From IMG/VR virus record IMGVR_UViG_3300046533_001474, positions 1 to 41,221 of that record: a DNA stretch of 41,221 bases, one strand, 5' to 3'. The DNA is from a virus. Positions 17,145 to 29,387 of the stretch are shown here, piece by piece (position 1 is the stretch's first letter; the number at the start of each line of letters is the position of its first letter). The position numbers and the translations under genes were made by a program. The notes below the pieces were generated by a model that made no database searches, was not told the origin of the DNA, and saw nothing but the letters and a program-made list of their open reading frames with translations.

Positions 17145-18122
17145 TTATGAGCCGTACACGCTCGCGTGGAGGTTCTGGACGCTGATCCACAGCGGCGACG
17201 ACGCCGCGCGCACCGACCGTGCCGACAGGGTCTCGATGACGGTCTTCCCGTCCGGGTCGAGCTCCGTCAATGCGTTCCCGCGGTACGTGAGCACCGGCAG
17301 GTTCATGTCGATCAGATACGACGGGCCCGCGAGGGCGCCGACGCGGAGCGATCCCGTCGCGACGGTCGTGGTCGGTGCGACGCCGCCACCGTAGTAGACG
17401 CTCTTCCAGTGCGCCGGAGACTCGAACCGGCGGGTGACCTCGACGTCGATCGTCCGGTTCTGCACCGGCATCTCGTCGAGGGTCAGCCCCTGCGACTGCA
17501 ACTCCTCGACGCCGAGTGTGACGTCGACCTTCACGCCGGTGATGTCCGAGTCGCCTGTGCCGTCGAGGACGTAGGTGGGGGCGGCGTGCGCGAGGAACGG
17601 CTCCTCCCCGTAGTAGGTGGGGGTGAACGCGCCGCTGGAGGCGCCGTGGTTGATCGCGGTGAACGGGAACGTGAACTTCCACGGATCCCCGGGGCTGACT
17701 TCGATCGTGACGCCGGTGAAGCGGACGTCGCTGAAGAGCTGCGGGTTCGTGCCCGGGTGCGCGGCGACGATCGTGAACCACGGGAACGATGCGTGGTTCG
17801 ACTGGAAGGTGTGCTTCGCCATCAGCGACCCGCCGTCCCAGGTGCCGCCGGCGGGCACGGCGGCGAGGAGCTGCGGGAGGATCATCGGGCGGCCGTTGAT
17901 CACGATCTGCCCCGCGGCCTTCTGGCTCTTCTTGTAGGTGAACCCGTAGTCGAGGCCGTCGCCGCCTTCGCGGAGGTCGACGACTTCGATCTGGGGCTGG
18001 AAGTCGGTGCCGGACTCGTATTTCGCGAAGAGGAGCTTGCCGGCGGTGATCTGGGGGGTGCCGAGGGCGGACTGGAGCCCGATCGCGACGAAGGCGTTCG
18101 GGTCTGCTGAACTCAAGGGCAT
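17145..18122 (-). CDS. Major tail tube protein
   Basis: 325 aa, ATG at 18122 with GGAGG upstream. The N-terminus (DPNAFVAIGLQSALGTPQIT) is the pattern of siphophage tail tube proteins. Further parts are YGFTYKKSQKAAGQIVINGR, a central FTFPFTAINHGA and TLTYRGNALTELDPDG-like end, beta-rich throughout. Position between the tail terminator and the chaperones fits. It polymerises around the tape measure to form the tail tube. Confidence 0.85.
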   Translation of the reverse strand: MPLSSADPNAFVAIGLQSALGTPQITAGKLLFAKYESGTDFQPQIEVVDLREGGDGLDYGFTYKKSQKAAGQIVINGRPMILPQLLAAVPAGGTWDGGSLMAKHTFQSNHASFPWFTIVAAHPGTNPQLFSDVRFTGVTIEVSPGDPWKFTFPFTAINHGASSGAFTPTYYGEEPFLAHAAPTYVLDGTGDSDITGVKVDVTLGVEELQSQGLTLDEMPVQNRTIDVEVTRRFESPAHWKSVYYGGGVAPTTTVATGSLRVGALAGPSYLIDMNLPVLTYRGNALTELDPDGKTVIETLSARSVRAASSPLWISVQNLHASVYGS

Positions 18123-18167: not shown

Positions 18168-18677
18168 CTAGGGGCCTTCGAATTGGCGGCAGCGGAAGAT
18201 GACGGCGGTCGGTGACCGGTAGAGGGCGGTCTCCATGTCGGGCTCCGCGACCGGGCCCGGGATGTGCCGGACGGGCCGGATCGAGAACGCCGACCCGGTT
18301 AGGCTCATGACCGGGGGGTCCATGTGGAGGACCTCGGTGATCGCCCTGCGCCACCGGAGGTGCCGGGTGAAGAGCGCGCCCCGGTCGGTGTCCTGCTCGA
18401 CCGCGACGACCATGATCTCGGTGACGTACACGAAGCTGGCACCTGATTCGGCCTCGTACTCGGGTGACGCGGTTTCGGTGACGATGACCGCGGGGAGCTG
18501 GCCTGGCATGCCGTTCGGGATCCCGCCGAGGTAGTAGTCATTGTCGCCCGGGGCGGCGAGGACGATCCCGTCGGGTTTCTCCGCGTTGATCGTCGCGATC
18601 CGTGCGGGCAGCCCGGCCTGGAGCTTGTCAACGACCGCGGTGATGATTGACTCGGAGAGCCGGAGGTTCGTCGTCAT
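18168..18677 (-). CDS. Tail terminator/neck protein
   Basis: 169 aa, ATG adjacent to the upstream stop. It has LSESIITAVVDKLQAGLPAR at the N-terminus, a beta-rich core (LPAVIVTETAS, SFVYVTEIMVVAVEQDTDRG) and RHLRWRRAITEVLHMDPP. This helix-then-sheet layout and its place just before the tail tube gene fit the tail-terminator (Lambda gpU/neck) class. Sequence alone does not settle it. Confidence 0.6.
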   Translation of the reverse strand: MTTNLRLSESIITAVVDKLQAGLPARIATINAEKPDGIVLAAPGDNDYYLGGIPNGMPGQLPAVIVTETASPEYEAESGASFVYVTEIMVVAVEQDTDRGALFTRHLRWRRAITEVLHMDPPVMSLTGSAFSIRPVRHIPGPVAEPDMETALYRSPTAVIFRCRQFEGP

Positions 18678-19169
18678 CTAGATGCTCCCCCACGTCTCCG
18701 CGGCCGCGGCGTTGATCCAGCCGACCATCGCCGCCTCGAACTCCTGCCTGTCCTCGACCCGCACGTCGATCACTTTCCGTTGCGGCGGCCGGCCCGGGGT
18801 TGACCCGCCGTCCTGGTGGTACTCGGCGTAGGCGACGTCGGTGCCCCAGATCATCTGCTTCGGCCCCGTCGTGGCGGCTTGCCCGGGGTCGATCAGCGAC
18901 TGCTTGAGCGCGCTCGTCTGCACCAGGATCGGCTGGTCGTCACGGCGCGCCCTGGTCGAGTCCGCCAACGCGGGCCAGGCGCCCCAGTCGTAGGAGTCGA
19001 AGATGTTCTCCTCCTGCTGCGACATGATCGGCTTGAACAAGTCCCAGAGCGTCGTGAGGTCGTCGAGCTTCCGGCGGAACGCGCCGGACTGCTGGAGGAT
19101 GAACTCGATCGGCGGCTCGAAGTGAAGCGAGACGCCGCCTCCGCCTCCTCCGACGACGGGGCCAGCCAC
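18678..19169 (-). CDS. HK97-gp10/Mu-gpG-like virion morphogenesis protein
   Basis: 163 aa, GTG at 19169 next to the upstream stop. It has SLHFEPPIEFILQQSGAFRR, a helical middle, and the motif VAYAEYHQDGG with RPPQRKVIDV near the end. The Y-A-x-x-H-x-x-G-G/PxRxF/V pattern is typical of gp10/gpG-type head-tail joining proteins. Its role is probably at the head-tail junction. Confidence 0.75.
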   Translation of the reverse strand: MAGPVVGGGGGGVSLHFEPPIEFILQQSGAFRRKLDDLTTLWDLFKPIMSQQEENIFDSYDWGAWPALADSTRARRDDQPILVQTSALKQSLIDPGQAATTGPKQMIWGTDVAYAEYHQDGGSTPGRPPQRKVIDVRVEDRQEFEAAMVGWINAAAAETWGSI

Positions 19170-19619
19170 CTAGAACACCGTGCACGCGCGGATGACCGGG
19201 CTCGCGTTGCCGCTTCCTTTCGGGAGCAGCCGGCCCGTCTCCCCCGGGCTCGACCCGGCGCCGACCAGCGGCAATGACCCGTCGCGGATCCCCGCGAGCG
19301 CGTCGCGGTACTCCTTGCAGTAGTCCGAGGCGAGCGACGAGCGATCCTGGGTGCCGGTGACGTTCGGGAAGTACAACCGGAGCACCTTGCAGCCGACACC
19401 GCTCTTCGCATAGCCGACGAGCTGCGCATACGCGCCGGTGGGGCCCGCGCTCGCCGGCGACAAGACGGGAACGTTGTATCCGGCCGCGGCGGCGGCAGCG
19501 TCGAGCTCCGCCGACACCTCGTAGCAGATCGAGCCGACCTGGCCGAGCGTCAACGGGCTCGAGTTCGTGCTGACCCGGACGCCGGCGGGCAATGTGATGT
19601 CGGTCGCCGACACGTACAT
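19170..19619 (-). CDS. Head-tail connector-like protein
   Basis: 149 aa, ATG at 19619 directly after the upstream stop. It starts YVSATDITLPAGVRVSTNSS, has an Ala-rich helix and later a conserved-looking YCKEYRDALAGIRDGSLPLV. The order (small protein, connector, gp10-like, terminator, tube) suggests a head-completion or adaptor protein. No direct family hit is recognised. Confidence 0.6.
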   Translation of the reverse strand: MYVSATDITLPAGVRVSTNSSPLTLGQVGSICYEVSAELDAAAAAAGYNVPVLSPASAGPTGAYAQLVGYAKSGVGCKVLRLYFPNVTGTQDRSSLASDYCKEYRDALAGIRDGSLPLVGAGSSPGETGRLLPKGSGNASPVIRACTVF

Positions 19620-19829
19620 CTAGGCCTCCTGGTACTGGCCGACGCCGGTGCCCTCGCGTGCGGCGGGGGCGAGCGCCTTGCCGGGGCCCGCGCTGACCAG
19701 CCCGGCCTGGGGGCGCACCCTGATCGTGTCGACGAGGGTGACGAGGATGCCGTCCTTCGTCACCACGCCAGTGAGGATGCCGCCGCCGGCGTTGAACGCG
19801 ACCTTCGTGCCGGCCTTCGGCTTCGTCAT
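19620..19829 (-). CDS. 69-aa small protein in the connector region
   Basis: ATG at 19829 overlaps the stop of the glycosyltransferase gene (ATGA), so the two are coupled. It starts MTKPKAGTKVAFNAGGGILT and continues VVTKDGILVTLVDTIRVRP, a small beta-barrel-like pattern, with an Ala/Gly-rich C-terminus. It may be a head-tail joining or accessory protein. Function unknown. Confidence 0.6.
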   Translation of the reverse strand: MTKPKAGTKVAFNAGGGILTGVVTKDGILVTLVDTIRVRPQAGLVSAGPGKALAPAAREGTGVGQYQEA

Positions 19830-22800
19830 GCGGGCACCGCCTCTCTGATCGGGTCGGCCGCGGGGACGAGAGCTGTCCACTCGGGCAGCCGAGACTCCCA
19901 GGTGATCCCGTCGACGCCCTGGATGGCTTTCCGGTGCCAGCGCCCCCACTGCTTCTCGTCGAGGAGCATCGCCGTGACCTTCGCGACGAACGCTTCCTGG
20001 TAGTCGGGCGTCTGGTTCGTCTGCTCCGTCTCGTCGTTCCCCCAGGTGATCAGGAGCCCGTGTTCGCCGACGGTCTCGTGAAGGGCTCCGAGATCCGATG
20101 TGACGATCGGTAGGCCGGCGGCGCGGGCTTCCATCGCGACGATGCACGACGTCTCCAGGAACGCCGTCGGATACGACAGGACACGGGCCTGCTGCATCTC
20201 GTCGGCCAATTGCTTCTGCCCCACACGGCCACGCAAATGGACGCCGCCGTCTTCGCCGCCGAGTTCGTCGACGCGGGCGAGGATGGCCTGCTTGAACGCG
20301 TGCAGCTGGGGGTTCGCCTGCGCGACCCGGTCGAACACATCGAACCCGTAGAACACGTGGAGCTCAGCATCGGGCACCCGCGCCCTGATCTCGGGCCAGA
20401 CGGTGAGCATCACGTCGAGGCCGCGATCGGCGCTCGACGAGTACACGCAGCGGGGCGCGCGCTCCGCGAACGGGCGGGCCTGGTCCGGGAAGCGGGGCTC
20501 GCCGAGCGCCGTCAGGCTGATCCCGTTACGGATCACCCGGAGCTTCTCCGCGGCGTATGGGTAGCGGGCTTCGAACCTGCTGCGCTGCCAGTCGCTCAGG
20601 CAGACGATGTGGGTGAACTTCTGGGCGCGCTCCTCGGTGAGGAGCCCGTCGTACTGGTTGTCATGGCACCAGAGAGCGGTGGCCTTCGCGCGGACGGGGT
20701 TGTCAACAACATGGGGGATCCTGGACACGATGAGGAGGTCGCAATCGTCGGTGGGGTCCCAGGCGGTGTGGGGACGGAAGAGGACGCCGCCGGCGATGCC
20801 AGGCTCCGCGCCCGAGTAGACCGTGACCTGGTAGCCGTCCTGCGCCATTTGGATCGACAGGTGAATCAGCGCGGTCTCCGACCCGCCGAGGCCGCCGTCG
20901 TTCACGCTGCGCGGAGACCAGGGCTCCCAGGACGCGCCGGCGTAGAACGTCACCTTCCCCTTCCTCGGGGTGGGCTTGTAGGCGACGAACGCGACGTGGT
21001 CGTCGTGCTGCAGCTCGAGGGTTTCGAGGGAGCCACGGGCCATGATCATCTGGGAGAGCTCGTGGATCGGGATCGCGCGGAGATGCCCCTTCAGCTCCAC
21101 CGACGCCCACCGGTCGATCTGGCCGCGCTCGAACGCCCCGTTGGGCGTTGAGATGCAGACGAGCCCGTCGGGTCCGCACAGGCTCTCCAGGACATCGAGG
21201 GTGCGGTTCATGTCGGGGACGTGCTCGAGCACCTCGAAGAGCAGGACGAGGTCGTAGACGGCGGGGCCGTGGCCGTTGCCGAGGAGGCTTTTCGCGTCGT
21301 GGAGGTCGCCCTGCACATATCGGCCTGGCGCCTCGAACTTCTGGATCCTGGCGCGGCCCTTCTCGATGCTCTGCGAGTTCAGCTCGATGCCGTCACAGAC
21401 GACCTGGGCGTTGACCCAGAGGTAGCAGGCGAGCCACATGTCGTTCGCGCCAAGGTCGAGCACCCGCGGCTTCCGTCCTTCGCGCTCCTCGAACTCCTGG
21501 CAGAGCTCGAGGACACGGGCGGCGCGCGGGATGTACTCGCCGACCTTCGCGACGATGTCGTCGCTGACGGTGGACTCCTTCGGCTCGTCGGCGTACCAGC
21601 GCCGGTACTCCTCCGGATGGAGCGCATGGTCGACCATCAGTTTCTGGTCGGCGCGGGCTTTCACGATCTCGGGGCGCTCCGCGATGATGTACGGGACCGC
21701 GCCCATCAGCTCGTGGGCCTTCATGTTCTCGTCGTGGCGGACGAGCACCTCGCGGAGCTCGAGCACCTTCGCGACCAGTTCGTTCTCGGCGAGCATCCCG
21801 TCGAGACGCTCCCCGTGCGCGCGAACCATCCCGTTCAAAGGGGCGACCTGTAGCGCCTGCGCGATCGCGGCGCGGCTGCCAGTGCCGTCACCGAGGTTCG
21901 CTCTGGCCTCGGCGAGTACCAGCAGCGGGATGACGGTGAACTCCAGGGGATTCAGGATCAGCGGGCTGATGGGCATCTTCGCCTTCAGCGCGAGCTCGGC
22001 GTACCAGGCGGCGCTGTCCCAGTCGCCGATCGCGCCGTAGGCCTGCGCGAGCCCGACGTAGTTCTCGGCCCACTTGGCGCGCTCCTTCACCGACTCGAGC
22101 TCGATGTGGATCCCGGCCTTGTGGTTCCCGAGGGCGCGGAGGCAGGTCGCGAGCTTGTGGTGCACCTGCGCGCGCTCGTCGGACCAGGCGGCGTCGGGGT
22201 GCTGGATGTACTGGTCGAGGTAGTCGGCGGCTCGGGCCCAGTCGCCCTTCGCCATGTACTCCGTGCCGAGATAGGCGAGCGTCCGCGGGTCGATCGGCTT
22301 CCCTTCCGCGGCGAGGCTGTCGGCCTTCGCGTGGAGGATCTTCAGGTTACGGTCGGGCTCGTACCGGTCAGGGACGAGGTCGCGCCGGTGCACGTACCGC
22401 ACCTGCTCCGGGGACACCTGGACGAGCTGCGGCTGGTGCCCCTCCGGCGGGATCAGCACCTCGTGGATCGGCTCACGCCACACGTACCCCGCTGAGCGGC
22501 GCAGAAGCCGTTCGCGCCAGAGGACGCACACGGTCGCGCCGGTCTCGTCGCGGGCGTAGTCGTACTGGAAGATGAACCCGTCCACCGACGGGTGCGCCTG
22601 GCCGGCGAGCATCCGAAGCCACTGGCCGCCGACGAGCTCGTCGTCGTCGTCGAGCCACAGAACGAAGTCGTAGGTCGCGTCGGGCATCGCGAAGCTCTGC
22701 TCGCGGGCCCACGCGAAGTCGTTGCGCCACTCGCCCTGCTCCACCACGATCGGGGCTAGCGGGACGAACTGGATGCCCTTCTCGGCGTCGGCGGCCACGG

Positions 22801-23035
22801 ATGCTTCGTGGTCGCGGCCGAGGTGCAGCTCGTGGCTGATGACCTGGCCATCGGCGCCGACCCTCATGCCTTTCAGCTCGTTCAGCTTCGCGAGCACCGC
22901 GGGGGTGCCGTCGGTCGAGCCGGTGTCGTAGACGAACACGCCGTCGACGAACGGGCGGATGCTCTCGAGACACCGTTCGATCGTTTTCGCGCTGTCCTTC
23001 ACGATCAGACACGCCGCGATCCTGGGAGGGTTCAT
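19826..23035 (-). CDS. Multi-domain glycosyltransferase/methyltransferase (GT2-TPR-MTase-GT4)
   Basis: 1069 aa. The ATG at 23035 has AAGGAG nine bases upstream and is preferred over a GTG 18 bases earlier. Residues 4-235 are a family 2 glycosyltransferase (CLIVKDSAKTIERCLESI, DTGSTDGT at 37-44, LWLDDDDEL near 127). Residues 245-410 are TPR-like helices. Residues about 500-670 are a class I SAM methyltransferase (VLDLGAND at 525, LLFEVLEHVPD near 598). Residues 694-1050 are a family 4-type glycosyltransferase (GGLGGSETAL near 714, YPTAFLETSCIVAMEARAAG near 955). The gene lies between major capsid and tail genes, so the natural target is a virion protein. Target and sugar are not known. Confidence 0.85.
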   Translation of the reverse strand: MNPPRIAACLIVKDSAKTIERCLESIRPFVDGVFVYDTGSTDGTPAVLAKLNELKGMRVGADGQVISHELHLGRDHEASVAADAEKGIQFVPLAPIVVEQGEWRNDFAWAREQSFAMPDATYDFVLWLDDDDELVGGQWLRMLAGQAHPSVDGFIFQYDYARDETGATVCVLWRERLLRRSAGYVWREPIHEVLIPPEGHQPQLVQVSPEQVRYVHRRDLVPDRYEPDRNLKILHAKADSLAAEGKPIDPRTLAYLGTEYMAKGDWARAADYLDQYIQHPDAAWSDERAQVHHKLATCLRALGNHKAGIHIELESVKERAKWAENYVGLAQAYGAIGDWDSAAWYAELALKAKMPISPLILNPLEFTVIPLLVLAEARANLGDGTGSRAAIAQALQVAPLNGMVRAHGERLDGMLAENELVAKVLELREVLVRHDENMKAHELMGAVPYIIAERPEIVKARADQKLMVDHALHPEEYRRWYADEPKESTVSDDIVAKVGEYIPRAARVLELCQEFEEREGRKPRVLDLGANDMWLACYLWVNAQVVCDGIELNSQSIEKGRARIQKFEAPGRYVQGDLHDAKSLLGNGHGPAVYDLVLLFEVLEHVPDMNRTLDVLESLCGPDGLVCISTPNGAFERGQIDRWASVELKGHLRAIPIHELSQMIMARGSLETLELQHDDHVAFVAYKPTPRKGKVTFYAGASWEPWSPRSVNDGGLGGSETALIHLSIQMAQDGYQVTVYSGAEPGIAGGVLFRPHTAWDPTDDCDLLIVSRIPHVVDNPVRAKATALWCHDNQYDGLLTEERAQKFTHIVCLSDWQRSRFEARYPYAAEKLRVIRNGISLTALGEPRFPDQARPFAERAPRCVYSSSADRGLDVMLTVWPEIRARVPDAELHVFYGFDVFDRVAQANPQLHAFKQAILARVDELGGEDGGVHLRGRVGQKQLADEMQQARVLSYPTAFLETSCIVAMEARAAGLPIVTSDLGALHETVGEHGLLITWGNDETEQTNQTPDYQEAFVAKVTAMLLDEKQWGRWHRKAIQGVDGITWESRLPEWTALVPAADPIREAVPA

Positions 23036-23071
23036 GCTGGCGGGCTCCTTCACTGGTTTGAGGTTGGGGTT

Positions 23072-23107: not shown

Positions 23108-23229
23108 TTCTGCGGCGAGCAGACCTTGCGAGGGCTGGACGGTCAGCGGGGGCCAGCCGTTGGCCGGGAGCCCGCCAGGGAACGACCGCGAGCGGAACCC
23201 CGCCGACCCTCCAGCCCCCGGGCTAGTAG

Positions 23230-23553
23230 CTACTGGTCGGCGAGGTGCGCCCGCCGCTTCGCCACCGCGGCGAGAACCGTCTCCCTGGGCGACTCCTGCG
23301 CCCCCTCGGCACGCTCGAACGCGTCGAGTTCGGCGTCGGTCTCGGCCTGGTTGATACGGGCGGTCACCTGCCGGACGTTCCCGTCGACGAGGCCACCCGG
23401 CTCGGCACCAGCGTCGTCGGGGGGCGGCGTGATCGTGAACCGCTCCCCCGACACCGCACCGATCCTCGCCGCCTCATCCCGCGCGAACGACAAGCTCACG
23501 TCGTGATGGACACGGCGGCCATCCTCACCGATCAGATCGAACTGCTGCACCAT
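23230..23553 (-). CDS. Small head protein downstream of capsid
   Basis: 107 aa from ATG 23553, with AGGGGG nine bases upstream. It has QQFDLIGEDGRRVHHDVSL, FTITPPPDDAG and a helical C-terminus (RQVTARINQAETDAELDAFE). In head operons the gene after the capsid often encodes a connector or a small structural protein. No specific family recognised. Confidence 0.65.
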   Translation of the reverse strand: MVQQFDLIGEDGRRVHHDVSLSFARDEAARIGAVSGERFTITPPPDDAGAEPGGLVDGNVRQVTARINQAETDAELDAFERAEGAQESPRETVLAAVAKRRAHLADQ

Positions 23554-23567
23554 GATGGCCCCCTGGT

Positions 23568-24533
23568 CTAGGTGAGGCAGTTGTTGATCTCGTAGCCGGC
23601 CGACGTCGCGACGACCTTCTCCGCGATCGTCATCCCGGTCGCGTACCAATCGAGCCGCTTCTTGTCGTCCCTGGCGGTGCGGGTCGAGAGAGGCTCCGCC
23701 TGCATCGTGTACGCCACCGACGGCGTCTCCAGCGCCGGTCCCGGCGACACGTACAGGACCCGGACCTGCTCGTCCCAGATGTCCGAGTACGAGGCGGTCT
23801 GGCCCTCGACGGCGGTGTTCTTGATGACACCGGGGATCAGGACACGCATCCCCCACAGGTAGCCGGGGAGGAGCGGGTACTGCTCGAACAGCGGCTGCGC
23901 GTCCACCGAGCCGCGGGTGTACTCCTGGAGCGTCGAGAAGAACCCGGTCTTGTGGAGGCCCTCGACGACGCCGGCGGGGATCACGATCGTGTTCGGGCGC
24001 ATCCCGATCGCCTGCCGGATCCCGGTGATGCCGAGGACGACATCAGTGATCACCGTCTTGTACGTGGTGTTCGTGGCGTCGTCCCACTTCGTCGCGGCGT
24101 CGGCGCCCAATGCGAGCTTGCCGCCGTTCGTCGTCTTCCGCAGCAGGGTCGCGACGCGCTGCTCCCGCTTGAGGAGGAGCCGCCCGAGGGTGCCCTGCTG
24201 TTTGTTCGTTTCGAGGCGGAGCTGGTCGTCGGCGTTCTGCCGCTCACGGTCCGACACGTCCCACGCGAGCTCGCGTCGCTGGCACCGGTACGTGTCGGTC
24301 GTGGATCCGAACTCGATCGAGCGCGGCTCGGTGCGGTCGGGGACGAGGTCGTCCACGTCGGTCGCGTAGAAGTCGCCCTGGGTGAAGACCGGGAAGATGT
24401 CGCTCTCGTGCTTCACCGGCAGTCGCGGGCACACCTCGTCGGCGATGAACCCCGCCTCGAGCGGCCGGTACAGAACGGCCAGGTTCGAGAGGAGCTGATC
24501 GACGTGGACGTTCCCAACGGTCTGTCCAGGCAT
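23568..24533 (-). CDS. Major capsid protein
   Basis: 321 aa, ATG at 24533 with AAAGGAC upstream. It contains VDQLLSNLAVLYRPLEAGFI, LAWDVSDRERQNAD, RPNTIVIPAGVVEGLHKTGF and WGMRVLIPGVI, a pattern of the HK97-fold capsid proteins found with Mu-type portal and protease genes. Position after protease/scaffold and decoration genes fits. Self-assembles into the procapsid shell. Confidence 0.87.
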   Translation of the reverse strand: MPGQTVGNVHVDQLLSNLAVLYRPLEAGFIADEVCPRLPVKHESDIFPVFTQGDFYATDVDDLVPDRTEPRSIEFGSTTDTYRCQRRELAWDVSDRERQNADDQLRLETNKQQGTLGRLLLKREQRVATLLRKTTNGGKLALGADAATKWDDATNTTYKTVITDVVLGITGIRQAIGMRPNTIVIPAGVVEGLHKTGFFSTLQEYTRGSVDAQPLFEQYPLLPGYLWGMRVLIPGVIKNTAVEGQTASYSDIWDEQVRVLYVSPGPALETPSVAYTMQAEPLSTRTARDDKKRLDWYATGMTIAEKVVATSAGYEINNCLT

Positions 24534-27689: not shown

Positions 27690-29387
27690 CTACAGATCGT
27701 CGTCGACGCCTGGCTTACTCGACCGCCTGTCGGAGATGCGCAGCCGGAACGTGGCCTGGTCACCGAGAGCCCCACCGGCCGTCTCGACGCTCGCGAGTTT
27801 CACACCGAACCGTTTCAGGTCAGCGATCGTCAATCCGAACGTGGCCATGTCGGAGATGAACACCCGGCCCGGCGCTCCCGGTAGGGCGGGCTGGATCGTG
27901 CCGACGATCAGCAGCGGCGACCCCGCCGCGCCACCCGTGACGACGCCGATGACGTGGAGCCCCGAGGTCAGCCGCGGCACTCCGAGCGCCTGCCCCGAAC
28001 CCGCGCCGACGAGCCTCGCGACGTGCAGCAATCGCGGCCGGCCGAGCTGCTCACCGCCCACGACACCCACCGGGAACATGAGCGCCCTGACCGTCACCAC
28101 ACCAGGCTGCGACGCCGAAGCGACGCCGATCAGTCGGAGCGTCGAGAACAATCTTGGCAGACCCTCGGCTTCGCCTGACGCGACACCGACAACACCGACC
28201 CTGACCTTCAGCAGCGGCATGCCCTCGGCCTCACCCGACGCCACCGACCGCGCCCGGAAGAACGGCAGGAGCTTCGGTAGCCCCAGAGCCTCCGAGGAGG
28301 CGGCGCCGATCCCGAGGATCGTCTGCCGCAACGCCAGGAGCGGCACGCCGACGGCTTCGCCGCTCAGGACACCGTTCAGGGCCACGATGATCGCCGACGG
28401 GAGCTGCCCTGCGTAGACGAGGGGCCTCCCCACTGCTTCGGCGGAAGCGACGCCGATCAGCAGGATCGTCTGTCTCAATCGTAGGAGCGGGACGCCGACT
28501 GCTTCAGCGGACGCGACGCCGATCAGCCGCGGGAGAGGCGACAGCTTCGGCAGCCCGACGGCGGACGCTGTGGCGGCGCCTATCGCGCGGAAGAACGGGA
28601 GCATCTTCGGCAGCCCGACCGCCTCGCTCGAGGCGACGCCGATCAGTCTGTCCTTCACGAAGGGTTGAGGAAGGCCGGCGGCCGAGCCTGTCGCGACGCC
28701 GTTCGGCACCACGGTGATCGACGAGCTCGCCCCCGACGCGTCGAGCTCGACCGCTCCCGCCTGCCAGCGGCCCGCGAGGGTGCTACCCCAGGTGATCGTC
28801 GTCCCGGTGAACCCGCTGTCGCGGGTGACGTACTCGCCGCCGATCGTCGGGGTCGCGTAGCCGGTGTCGTCGAACTCCGTCCAGCTCGTCGGCGGCGTCA
28901 TCCCGGCCGCGCCCACAAGGTCGGTGACGCCAGCGATGGTCGGGTTCCCCGTGTTCACGCTCGCCCCGAGCGTCACGAACGGGGTGGTGGCGTTGCCGCC
29001 GTTCGTGGCCTTGTCAACACTGGCCGACTGGAGGATCGCGGTCAGGCCCGTCTTGGTCATCCCCGAGACGCCGACGACCTGGATGATGCACCCCGTCGGG
29101 GTTGACGACGCGCCCGTGCTCGCCGTCACCGTCATCGAGCTGGCGGCGGCGAGCGCGTTCGCGACGAAGAACGCGATGATGGTGGCCCCGTTATCCGACG
29201 GGCGCGCAAAGATCCGGGTGAACCCGAGACTCTGCGAGTCGGTCATCGTCGGGTTCCCCGCGACCGTCGCGGAGTGGTGGACGATCGCGATGAGCAGCTC
29301 GTTCGCGGCGGGGGTGAACGCGCCGCTCGCATACGACGTCGCGTTCGCCGTGCTCGCCGTCGAGATGCGGTGCGTCGTGGTAGCCAC
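27690..29387 (-). CDS. Structural protein with thirteen ~20-residue repeats
   Basis: 565 aa, GTG at 29387 with GGGGAGG upstream. Residues 1-225 are a beta-rich domain (FTPAANELLIAIVHHSA, TIIAFFVANALA, TEFDDTGYATPTIGGEYVTR). Residues 229-500 hold 13 units with pattern IG[VA]AS[SA/G]EA-x-G-[LV]-P, most exactly 20 residues apart; related SAEAFG-type repeats occur in phage structural proteins. A C-terminal segment (GRVFISDMATFGLTIADLKR and on) follows. It sits between portal-side genes and MuF, an unusual place for a fibre-like protein. It could be an elongated capsid-attached fibre. Confidence 0.75.
   Translation of the reverse strand: MATTTHRISTASTANATSYASGAFTPAANELLIAIVHHSATVAGNPTMTDSQSLGFTRIFARPSDNGATIIAFFVANALAAASSMTVTASTGASSTPTGCIIQVVGVSGMTKTGLTAILQSASVDKATNGGNATTPFVTLGASVNTGNPTIAGVTDLVGAAGMTPPTSWTEFDDTGYATPTIGGEYVTRDSGFTGTTITWGSTLAGRWQAGAVELDASGASSSITVVPNGVATGSAAGLPQPFVKDRLIGVASSEAVGLPKMLPFFRAIGAATASAVGLPKLSPLPRLIGVASAEAVGVPLLRLRQTILLIGVASAEAVGRPLVYAGQLPSAIIVALNGVLSGEAVGVPLLALRQTILGIGAASSEALGLPKLLPFFRARSVASGEAEGMPLLKVRVGVVGVASGEAEGLPRLFSTLRLIGVASASQPGVVTVRALMFPVGVVGGEQLGRPRLLHVARLVGAGSGQALGVPRLTSGLHVIGVVTGGAAGSPLLIVGTIQPALPGAPGRVFISDMATFGLTIADLKRFGVKLASVETAGGALGDQATFRLRISDRRSSKPGVDDDL
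27888..28703 (-). repeat. Coding repeats of about 60 bp (20 residues), 13 units
   Basis: Units start near residues 229, 249, 269, 289, 311, 338, 360, 380, 400, 420, 440, 460 and 480. Most are exactly 60 bp apart and three are longer by 2-7 codons. Conserved core is G-V-A-S-x-E-A-x-G-x-P, with alternating hydrophobic residues between. The last four units have drifted most. Confidence 0.85.

Follow-up and report, generated by a model that had tools for sequence, protein, structure and literature searches.

A four-part glycosyltransferase-methyltransferase fusion encoded beside the major capsid gene of an uncultured tailed phage, a probable virion-glycosylation enzyme

The virus record analyzed here (41,221 bases; the whole stretch is called the window below) encodes, just downstream of the gene for the major capsid protein (MCP), a single polypeptide in which a family 2 glycosyltransferase (GT2), TPR-like helices, a SAM methyltransferase and a family 4 glycosyltransferase (GT4) follow one another. 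This fusion is probably a cytoplasmic, late-expressed and self-contained virion-glycosylation enzyme that adds a short methylated glycan. Virion glycosylation by phage enzymes is already known, being documented in a few mycobacteriophages; beyond those, Freeman and co-workers are said to have found little sign of it in 2023. More interesting than the single fusion is the wider MCP-linked family in which it stands. The features referred to below are as follows.

19826..23035, minus strand: fusion gene GT2-TPR-methyltransferase-GT4, 1069 aa, with ATG at 23035 and stop TGA at 19828-19826
22316..23035, minus strand: GT2 (GT-A) domain, residues 1-240; Pfam PF00535/PF13704, GmaR/SunS profile matches, motifs D37TGSTD42, D129-D132 and H191E192
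21536..22303, minus strand: TPR/helical module, residues 245-500; Pfam TPR, all-helical in the model, matches to OGT and consensus TPR
20960..21523, minus strand: class-I SAM methyltransferase, residues 505-692; Pfam Methyltransf_23, UbiG and D-glucose O-methyltransferase profiles, RebM/AtmM fold matches
19856..20959, minus strand: GT4 (GT-B) domain, residues 693-1060; Pfam PF13692/PF00534, EX7E = E961/E969, Foldseek match to PimA (TMt 0.70)
23129..23220, minus strand: GC-rich hairpin with 23-nt arms and a 46-nt loop, between the MCP region and the fusion
23230..23553, minus strand: small ORF of 107 aa between MCP and fusion, its N-terminus kept in a few relatives
23568..24533, minus strand: MCP (phrog_1005, E = 8e-50; synteny), the invariant upstream partner of the fusion
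19620..19829, minus strand: 69-aa ORF, ATG at 19829, overlapping the fusion stop (ATGA)
19170..19619, minus strand: downstream structural gene of 149 aa, next after the 69-aa ORF; a homologue lies 3' of the fusion in relatives reaching that far

The minus-strand reading frame 19826-23053 is open throughout. The ATG at 23035, with AAGGAG ahead of it, is the preferred start, an in-frame GTG at 23053 being less likely; Pfam residue numbers for the fusion, counted from the GTG, are six higher than in the ATG numbering. Pfam recognized GT2, TPR, Methyltransf_23 and Glyco_trans_1_4 in this order, the main ones above their curated cut-offs, and so confirmed the original prediction of one 1069-residue protein with these four parts; the strand, which that prediction did not give, is the minus strand. 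PHROGs matches were to beta-1,4-glycosyltransferase, glycosyltransferase and methyltransferase families. None of its segments reaches the hydrophobicity expected of a clear membrane helix.

Structure prediction of the catalytic parts, suggested earlier as a check, returned good domains; the catalytic motifs are intact in the sequences. The AlphaFold model of the fusion with 17 homologues has a mean pLDDT of 87.2 and a pTM of 0.61; its domains are well predicted and their mutual placement is uncertain. Foldseek found SunS/ThuS and PimA-like GT-B enzymes, SPINDLY/OGT as TPR-GT-B look-alikes, and the capsular polysaccharide multienzyme 8qoy. The first domain is a GT2 with a DxD-type motif and similarity in profile searches to GmaR (E = 8.5e-22) and SunS (7.3e-11), and TPR helices come directly after it, as in those enzymes. 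The methyltransferase has the Rossmann fold, motif I (DLGxxD) and acidic strand-2 residue of class I (motifs D527LGxND532, E601VxE604H605xPD608 and G650H651); modeled by itself (pTM 0.85) it shows a generic class-I fold, with RebM/AtmM among its matches. In profile searches it matches UbiG (7e-15) and, less strongly, D-glucose O-methyltransferase. The matches to UbiG, Hen1 and RebM do not fix the substrate. The last part, a GT-B fold with EX7E and a PimA fold match, has the features of a retaining GT4 transferase. Profiles of the parts also match GlgM, more weakly.

IMG/VR scans found relatives on independent contigs, aligned over their full length at 47-59% identity. Altogether 20 contigs, viral or viral-like, carry the four-part fusion; contig ends truncate four of them, and four are near-identical. 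HMMs built from each part gave the order GT2-TPR-methyltransferase-GT4 in all relatives. Wherever upstream sequence can be read, the MCP gene precedes the fusion, separated from it by 115 to about 1270 bases; on contigs long enough to show the downstream side, homologues of 19170-19619, 18678-19169, 18168-18677 and 17145-18122 follow. The proposed search for the same fusion in other phages was thus successful, and its confinement to non-phage cell-wall operons is excluded; among the matches kept from a seeded scan of bacterial genomes, which were otherwise mainly to GT2, no bacterial gene had the whole architecture. Adjacency to MCP inside one lineage is partly shared ancestry. A search based on MCP, made to avoid ascertainment by the fusion, recovered the fusion in all relatives whose MCP is at least 53% identical, including two that the fusion search had missed (L103 and L108), so that it has the look of a core gene in this group of phages. 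Of the more distant relatives, one at 34% (L117) has the fusion and four at 25-30% are without it.

Catalytic motifs are invariant or nearly so across the 17 homologues (DTGS-D, D-rich and HE in GT2; DLGxND and EVxEHxPD in the methyltransferase; EX7E in GT4, without exception wherever a homologue is readable). Comparison of two close pairs gave a dN/dS of about 0.09-0.28 per part, the GT4 value coming from one pair only, and such low values in each part indicate that all four are maintained under purifying selection. Full-length homologues, the mean pLDDT of 87 and these per-domain dN/dS values place the gene far beyond chance.

The one match in a cellular genome collection (JAHDVN010000004.1, equivalent to L023/L123/L124) is from a MAG labeled Thermoanaerobaculia, the only genome with the gene among 297 of its phylum. 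The contig is a relative of this phage, extending from terminase to fusion, with integrase, RusA and an RDF-like gene, and is a candidate prophage or mis-binned virus. Because it is phage-like and not clearly chromosomal, Thermoanaerobaculia was not accepted as host; nor is the actinobacterial host implied earlier shown.

Profiles confirmed terminase, Mu-type portal, protease, MCP, tape measure and LamG protein genes around the fusion in the window, which also encodes tyrosine integrase, RecT and RusA, a set that suggests a temperate phage. At 27690-29387 (minus strand) lies a repeat-rich protein with units like LIGVASAEAVGVPLL; it matches the minor tail family phrog_13352 and was detected in only part of the clade. 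The stop of the fusion had been described as coupled to a connector gene. The coupling is real, as the stop and the start of the 69-aa ORF overlap in ATGA, and the name connector is unproven for a product that matched no Pfam domain. The hairpin ends 93 nt ahead of the fusion start and is without a U-tract; its stem beat all 30 shuffles in the window and in L008, L009, L016, L103 and L108, and did not in the other relatives. Since so strong a hairpin separates the MCP region from the fusion, it may serve as an attenuator that lowers the level of the putative enzyme relative to MCP. The statement that the gene is transcribed with capsid and tail genes is qualified by this hairpin. A sigma-70 promoter scan found nothing.

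When an alignment of seven sequences served as query, the family grew to 251 relatives, of which the best 80 are all GT2/TPR-GT4 fusions. A same-strand phrog_1328-type MCP gene precedes the fusion in 62 of these 80, mostly no more than 1.5 kb away; several of the remaining 18 begin at a contig edge. Conversely, a survey starting from phrog_1328-type MCPs covered 62 loci with sufficient sequence and placed a fusion no more than 4 kb downstream in 28 of them, a fraction biased by a query built from fusion-linked MCPs; on a quick MCP tree the fusion trait changes at least five times. In one further member, L019, the MCP found about 3 kb upstream belongs to another type (phrog_9953), so that, with phrog_1005 and phrog_1328, the linkage recurs in at least three families of MCP. 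The Manatee Spring sequence MW202524 has a fusion without methyltransferase two genes after its MCP. Almost none of the wider family occurs in named phage records; isolate collections thus seem to miss a large MCP-adjacent family.

Members of the wider family differ in the enzymes that could cap a glycan. The methyltransferase is at the C-terminus in L131:6944-9817, L143:6983-9868, L169:6983-9811 and L162:5819-8734, apparently by an independent fusion, and a galactose-3-O-sulfotransferase-like gene (phrog_3347) between MCP and the GT fusion in L022:9058-9981 suggests sulfated virion glycans. To judge from these genes, capping enzymes recur across lineages and the capping chemistry varies. We consider it as likely as not that virion glycosylation is common among uncultured tailed phages and that MCP-adjacent GT2-TPR-GT4 proteins form a general, modular machine for it, with lineage-specific capping domains; the window protein would then be a version that primes, extends and methyl-caps the glycan within one polypeptide. 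Two other observations concern these genes. Inteins, some with LAGLIDADG or HNH, interrupt the GT4 part of distant GT2-TPR-GT4 genes (L175:3308-6427, L178:6971-10480, L196:6971-10243 and L198:6977-10219), and a phage GroEL-like chaperonin gene (L018:1804-3246) is situated between terminase and a GT2-TPR-GT4 fusion.

In the mechanism that we propose for the window protein, the TPR module would dock a structural protein, for which the MCP of the adjacent upstream gene is the likeliest candidate, and GT2 would put the first sugar on this acceptor from a host sugar nucleotide; GT4 would then extend the glycan by one or more sugars, and O-methylation by the methyltransferase would cap it. We infer the acceptor, the order of the steps, the sugars and the linkage, and likewise that the glycan rather than the protein is methylated. 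That one protein adds a short, methyl-capped glycan to the particle, as was originally predicted, is the best-supported reading: several capsid families have the gene next to MCP, its motifs are intact, it resembles GmaR and SunS, and Che8 and Corndog, described below, have the same enzyme mix. The substrates proposed with it lack such support: the repeat protein at 27690-29387 is undetected in several enzyme-bearing relatives, and MCP is the only invariant upstream partner. Within the MCP C-termini, we found no conserved acceptor residue or motif. A Cys three residues from the end, common in the clade, was rejected because it is absent from L002, L007, L009, L016, L023 and L117, and in the phrog_1328 lineage the MCP tails show no difference in length or Ser/Thr content with and without the fusion. 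The segments richest in Ser/Thr (the N-terminus of the called TerL and the C-terminus of g16434) were not used, as these ends are uncertain in start or frame.

A variant of this explanation, which we regard as unlikely, is that the methyl group goes to the structural protein itself, or that the methyltransferase contributes little, with only the glycosyltransferases acting on a glycan. The large GT2-TPR-GT4 family without a methyltransferase between TPR and GT4 implies that this domain is dispensable for the basic reaction, and the corresponding region of L019 aligns with the Pfam methyltransferase model along a part of its length only. However, its motifs are invariant in the window clade, where its dN/dS is 0.11-0.16, and other lineages have attached a methyltransferase at another position.

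It is rather unlikely that the enzyme alters a host surface polysaccharide, for serotype conversion or superinfection exclusion in this probably temperate phage. The tyrosine integrase of the window would agree with such a role, as would the frequency of GT2 and GT4 domains in cell-surface glycan pathways and the fold match to 8qoy. However, the fusion lies within the late structural array in every relative, has no transmembrane segment, and is accompanied by no gtr-type membrane partner (flippase or membrane-bound transferase) among the main ORFs profiled; moreover, its nearest GT2-TPR relatives act on proteins or peptides. This last similarity, to GmaR and SunS, would also suit an acceptor outside the virion (a regulator, a bacteriocin-like peptide or a protein of the host), in the manner of these enzymes in bacteria. 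We consider this improbable, since the gene keeps its linkage to MCP across several capsid families and shares no non-structural neighbor among them. Hypermodification of phage DNA with methylated sugars is very improbable: decoration of DNA by glycosyltransferases is known from phages (Pyle et al. 2024, cited in PMC12619734), but no base-hypermodification gene was seen among the main window ORFs profiled, and the late structural location, the TPR module and the GmaR/SunS-type GT2 point elsewhere.

If virion glycosylation is indeed the function, a single soluble enzyme would be a possible tool for cytoplasmic glycoprotein engineering, and the family would allow the function of capsid glycans outside animals to be explored.

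Among known systems, O-GlcNAc transferase and SPINDLY, which were among the top fold matches, also combine TPR and GT-B in one protein. They are, however, GT41 enzymes without GT2 or methyltransferase, and their low TM-scores denote overall resemblance only. The GT2-TPR-GT4 proteins of uncultured phages (for example that of MW202524, annotated 'beta4glucosyltransferase') have homologous parts and occupy the same place after MCP, but are without a methyltransferase between TPR and GT4, and in the distant members aligned the second Glu of EX7E is replaced; these genes carry no family annotation in the records examined. GmaR, the flagellin O-GlcNAc transferase of Listeria, and the S-glycosyltransferases SunS/ThuS likewise have a GT2 followed by TPR-like helices and act on protein or peptide. 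The GT2 domain of GmaR glycosylates flagellin, and its TPR has been proposed to bind the substrate (PMC9638930). In contrast to the window protein, these enzymes are without GT4 and methyltransferase (GmaR has an antirepressor domain instead), and they act on cellular substrates or on prophage peptides.

A further close parallel is with the mycobacteriophages Che8 and the Corndog cluster. In the latter, the interval between portal and protease holds genes for one O-methyltransferase, for two glycosyltransferases and for a putative GlcNAc transferase (PMC4351075); capsid and tail tube are the reported targets of these enzymes (PMC11600133). In Che8 the major capsid protein carries glycans (PMC11256854), and glycans are placed at the C-terminal ends of capsid and tail tube subunits (PMC12619734). 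The enzymes in question are gp108-110 of Che8 and the O-methyltransferase and glycosyltransferases of the Corndog cluster (Freeman et al. 2023, as described in PMC11600133 and PMC12619734). By Pfam, the genes of Che8 and of Firecracker, which represented the Corndog cluster in our comparison, both include TylF-type O-methyltransferases, together with GT2- and GT25-like proteins, and Che8 gp108 is itself a GT2-TylF fusion. Neither hmmsearch (no match) nor BLAST (no significant similarity) related the window enzyme to these proteins. Like them, it is a set of phage-encoded transferases linked to structural genes (in Corndog, the head-gene block) and joined to a methyltransferase, whose O-specificity in the window is presumed; unlike them, it is not a group of separate small genes with TylF/Methyltransf_24 domains but one polypeptide with GT4, TPR and Methyltransf_23. 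Different parts have thus been combined into the same set of activities, and no other argument for a methyl-capped glycan on the virion is as strong.
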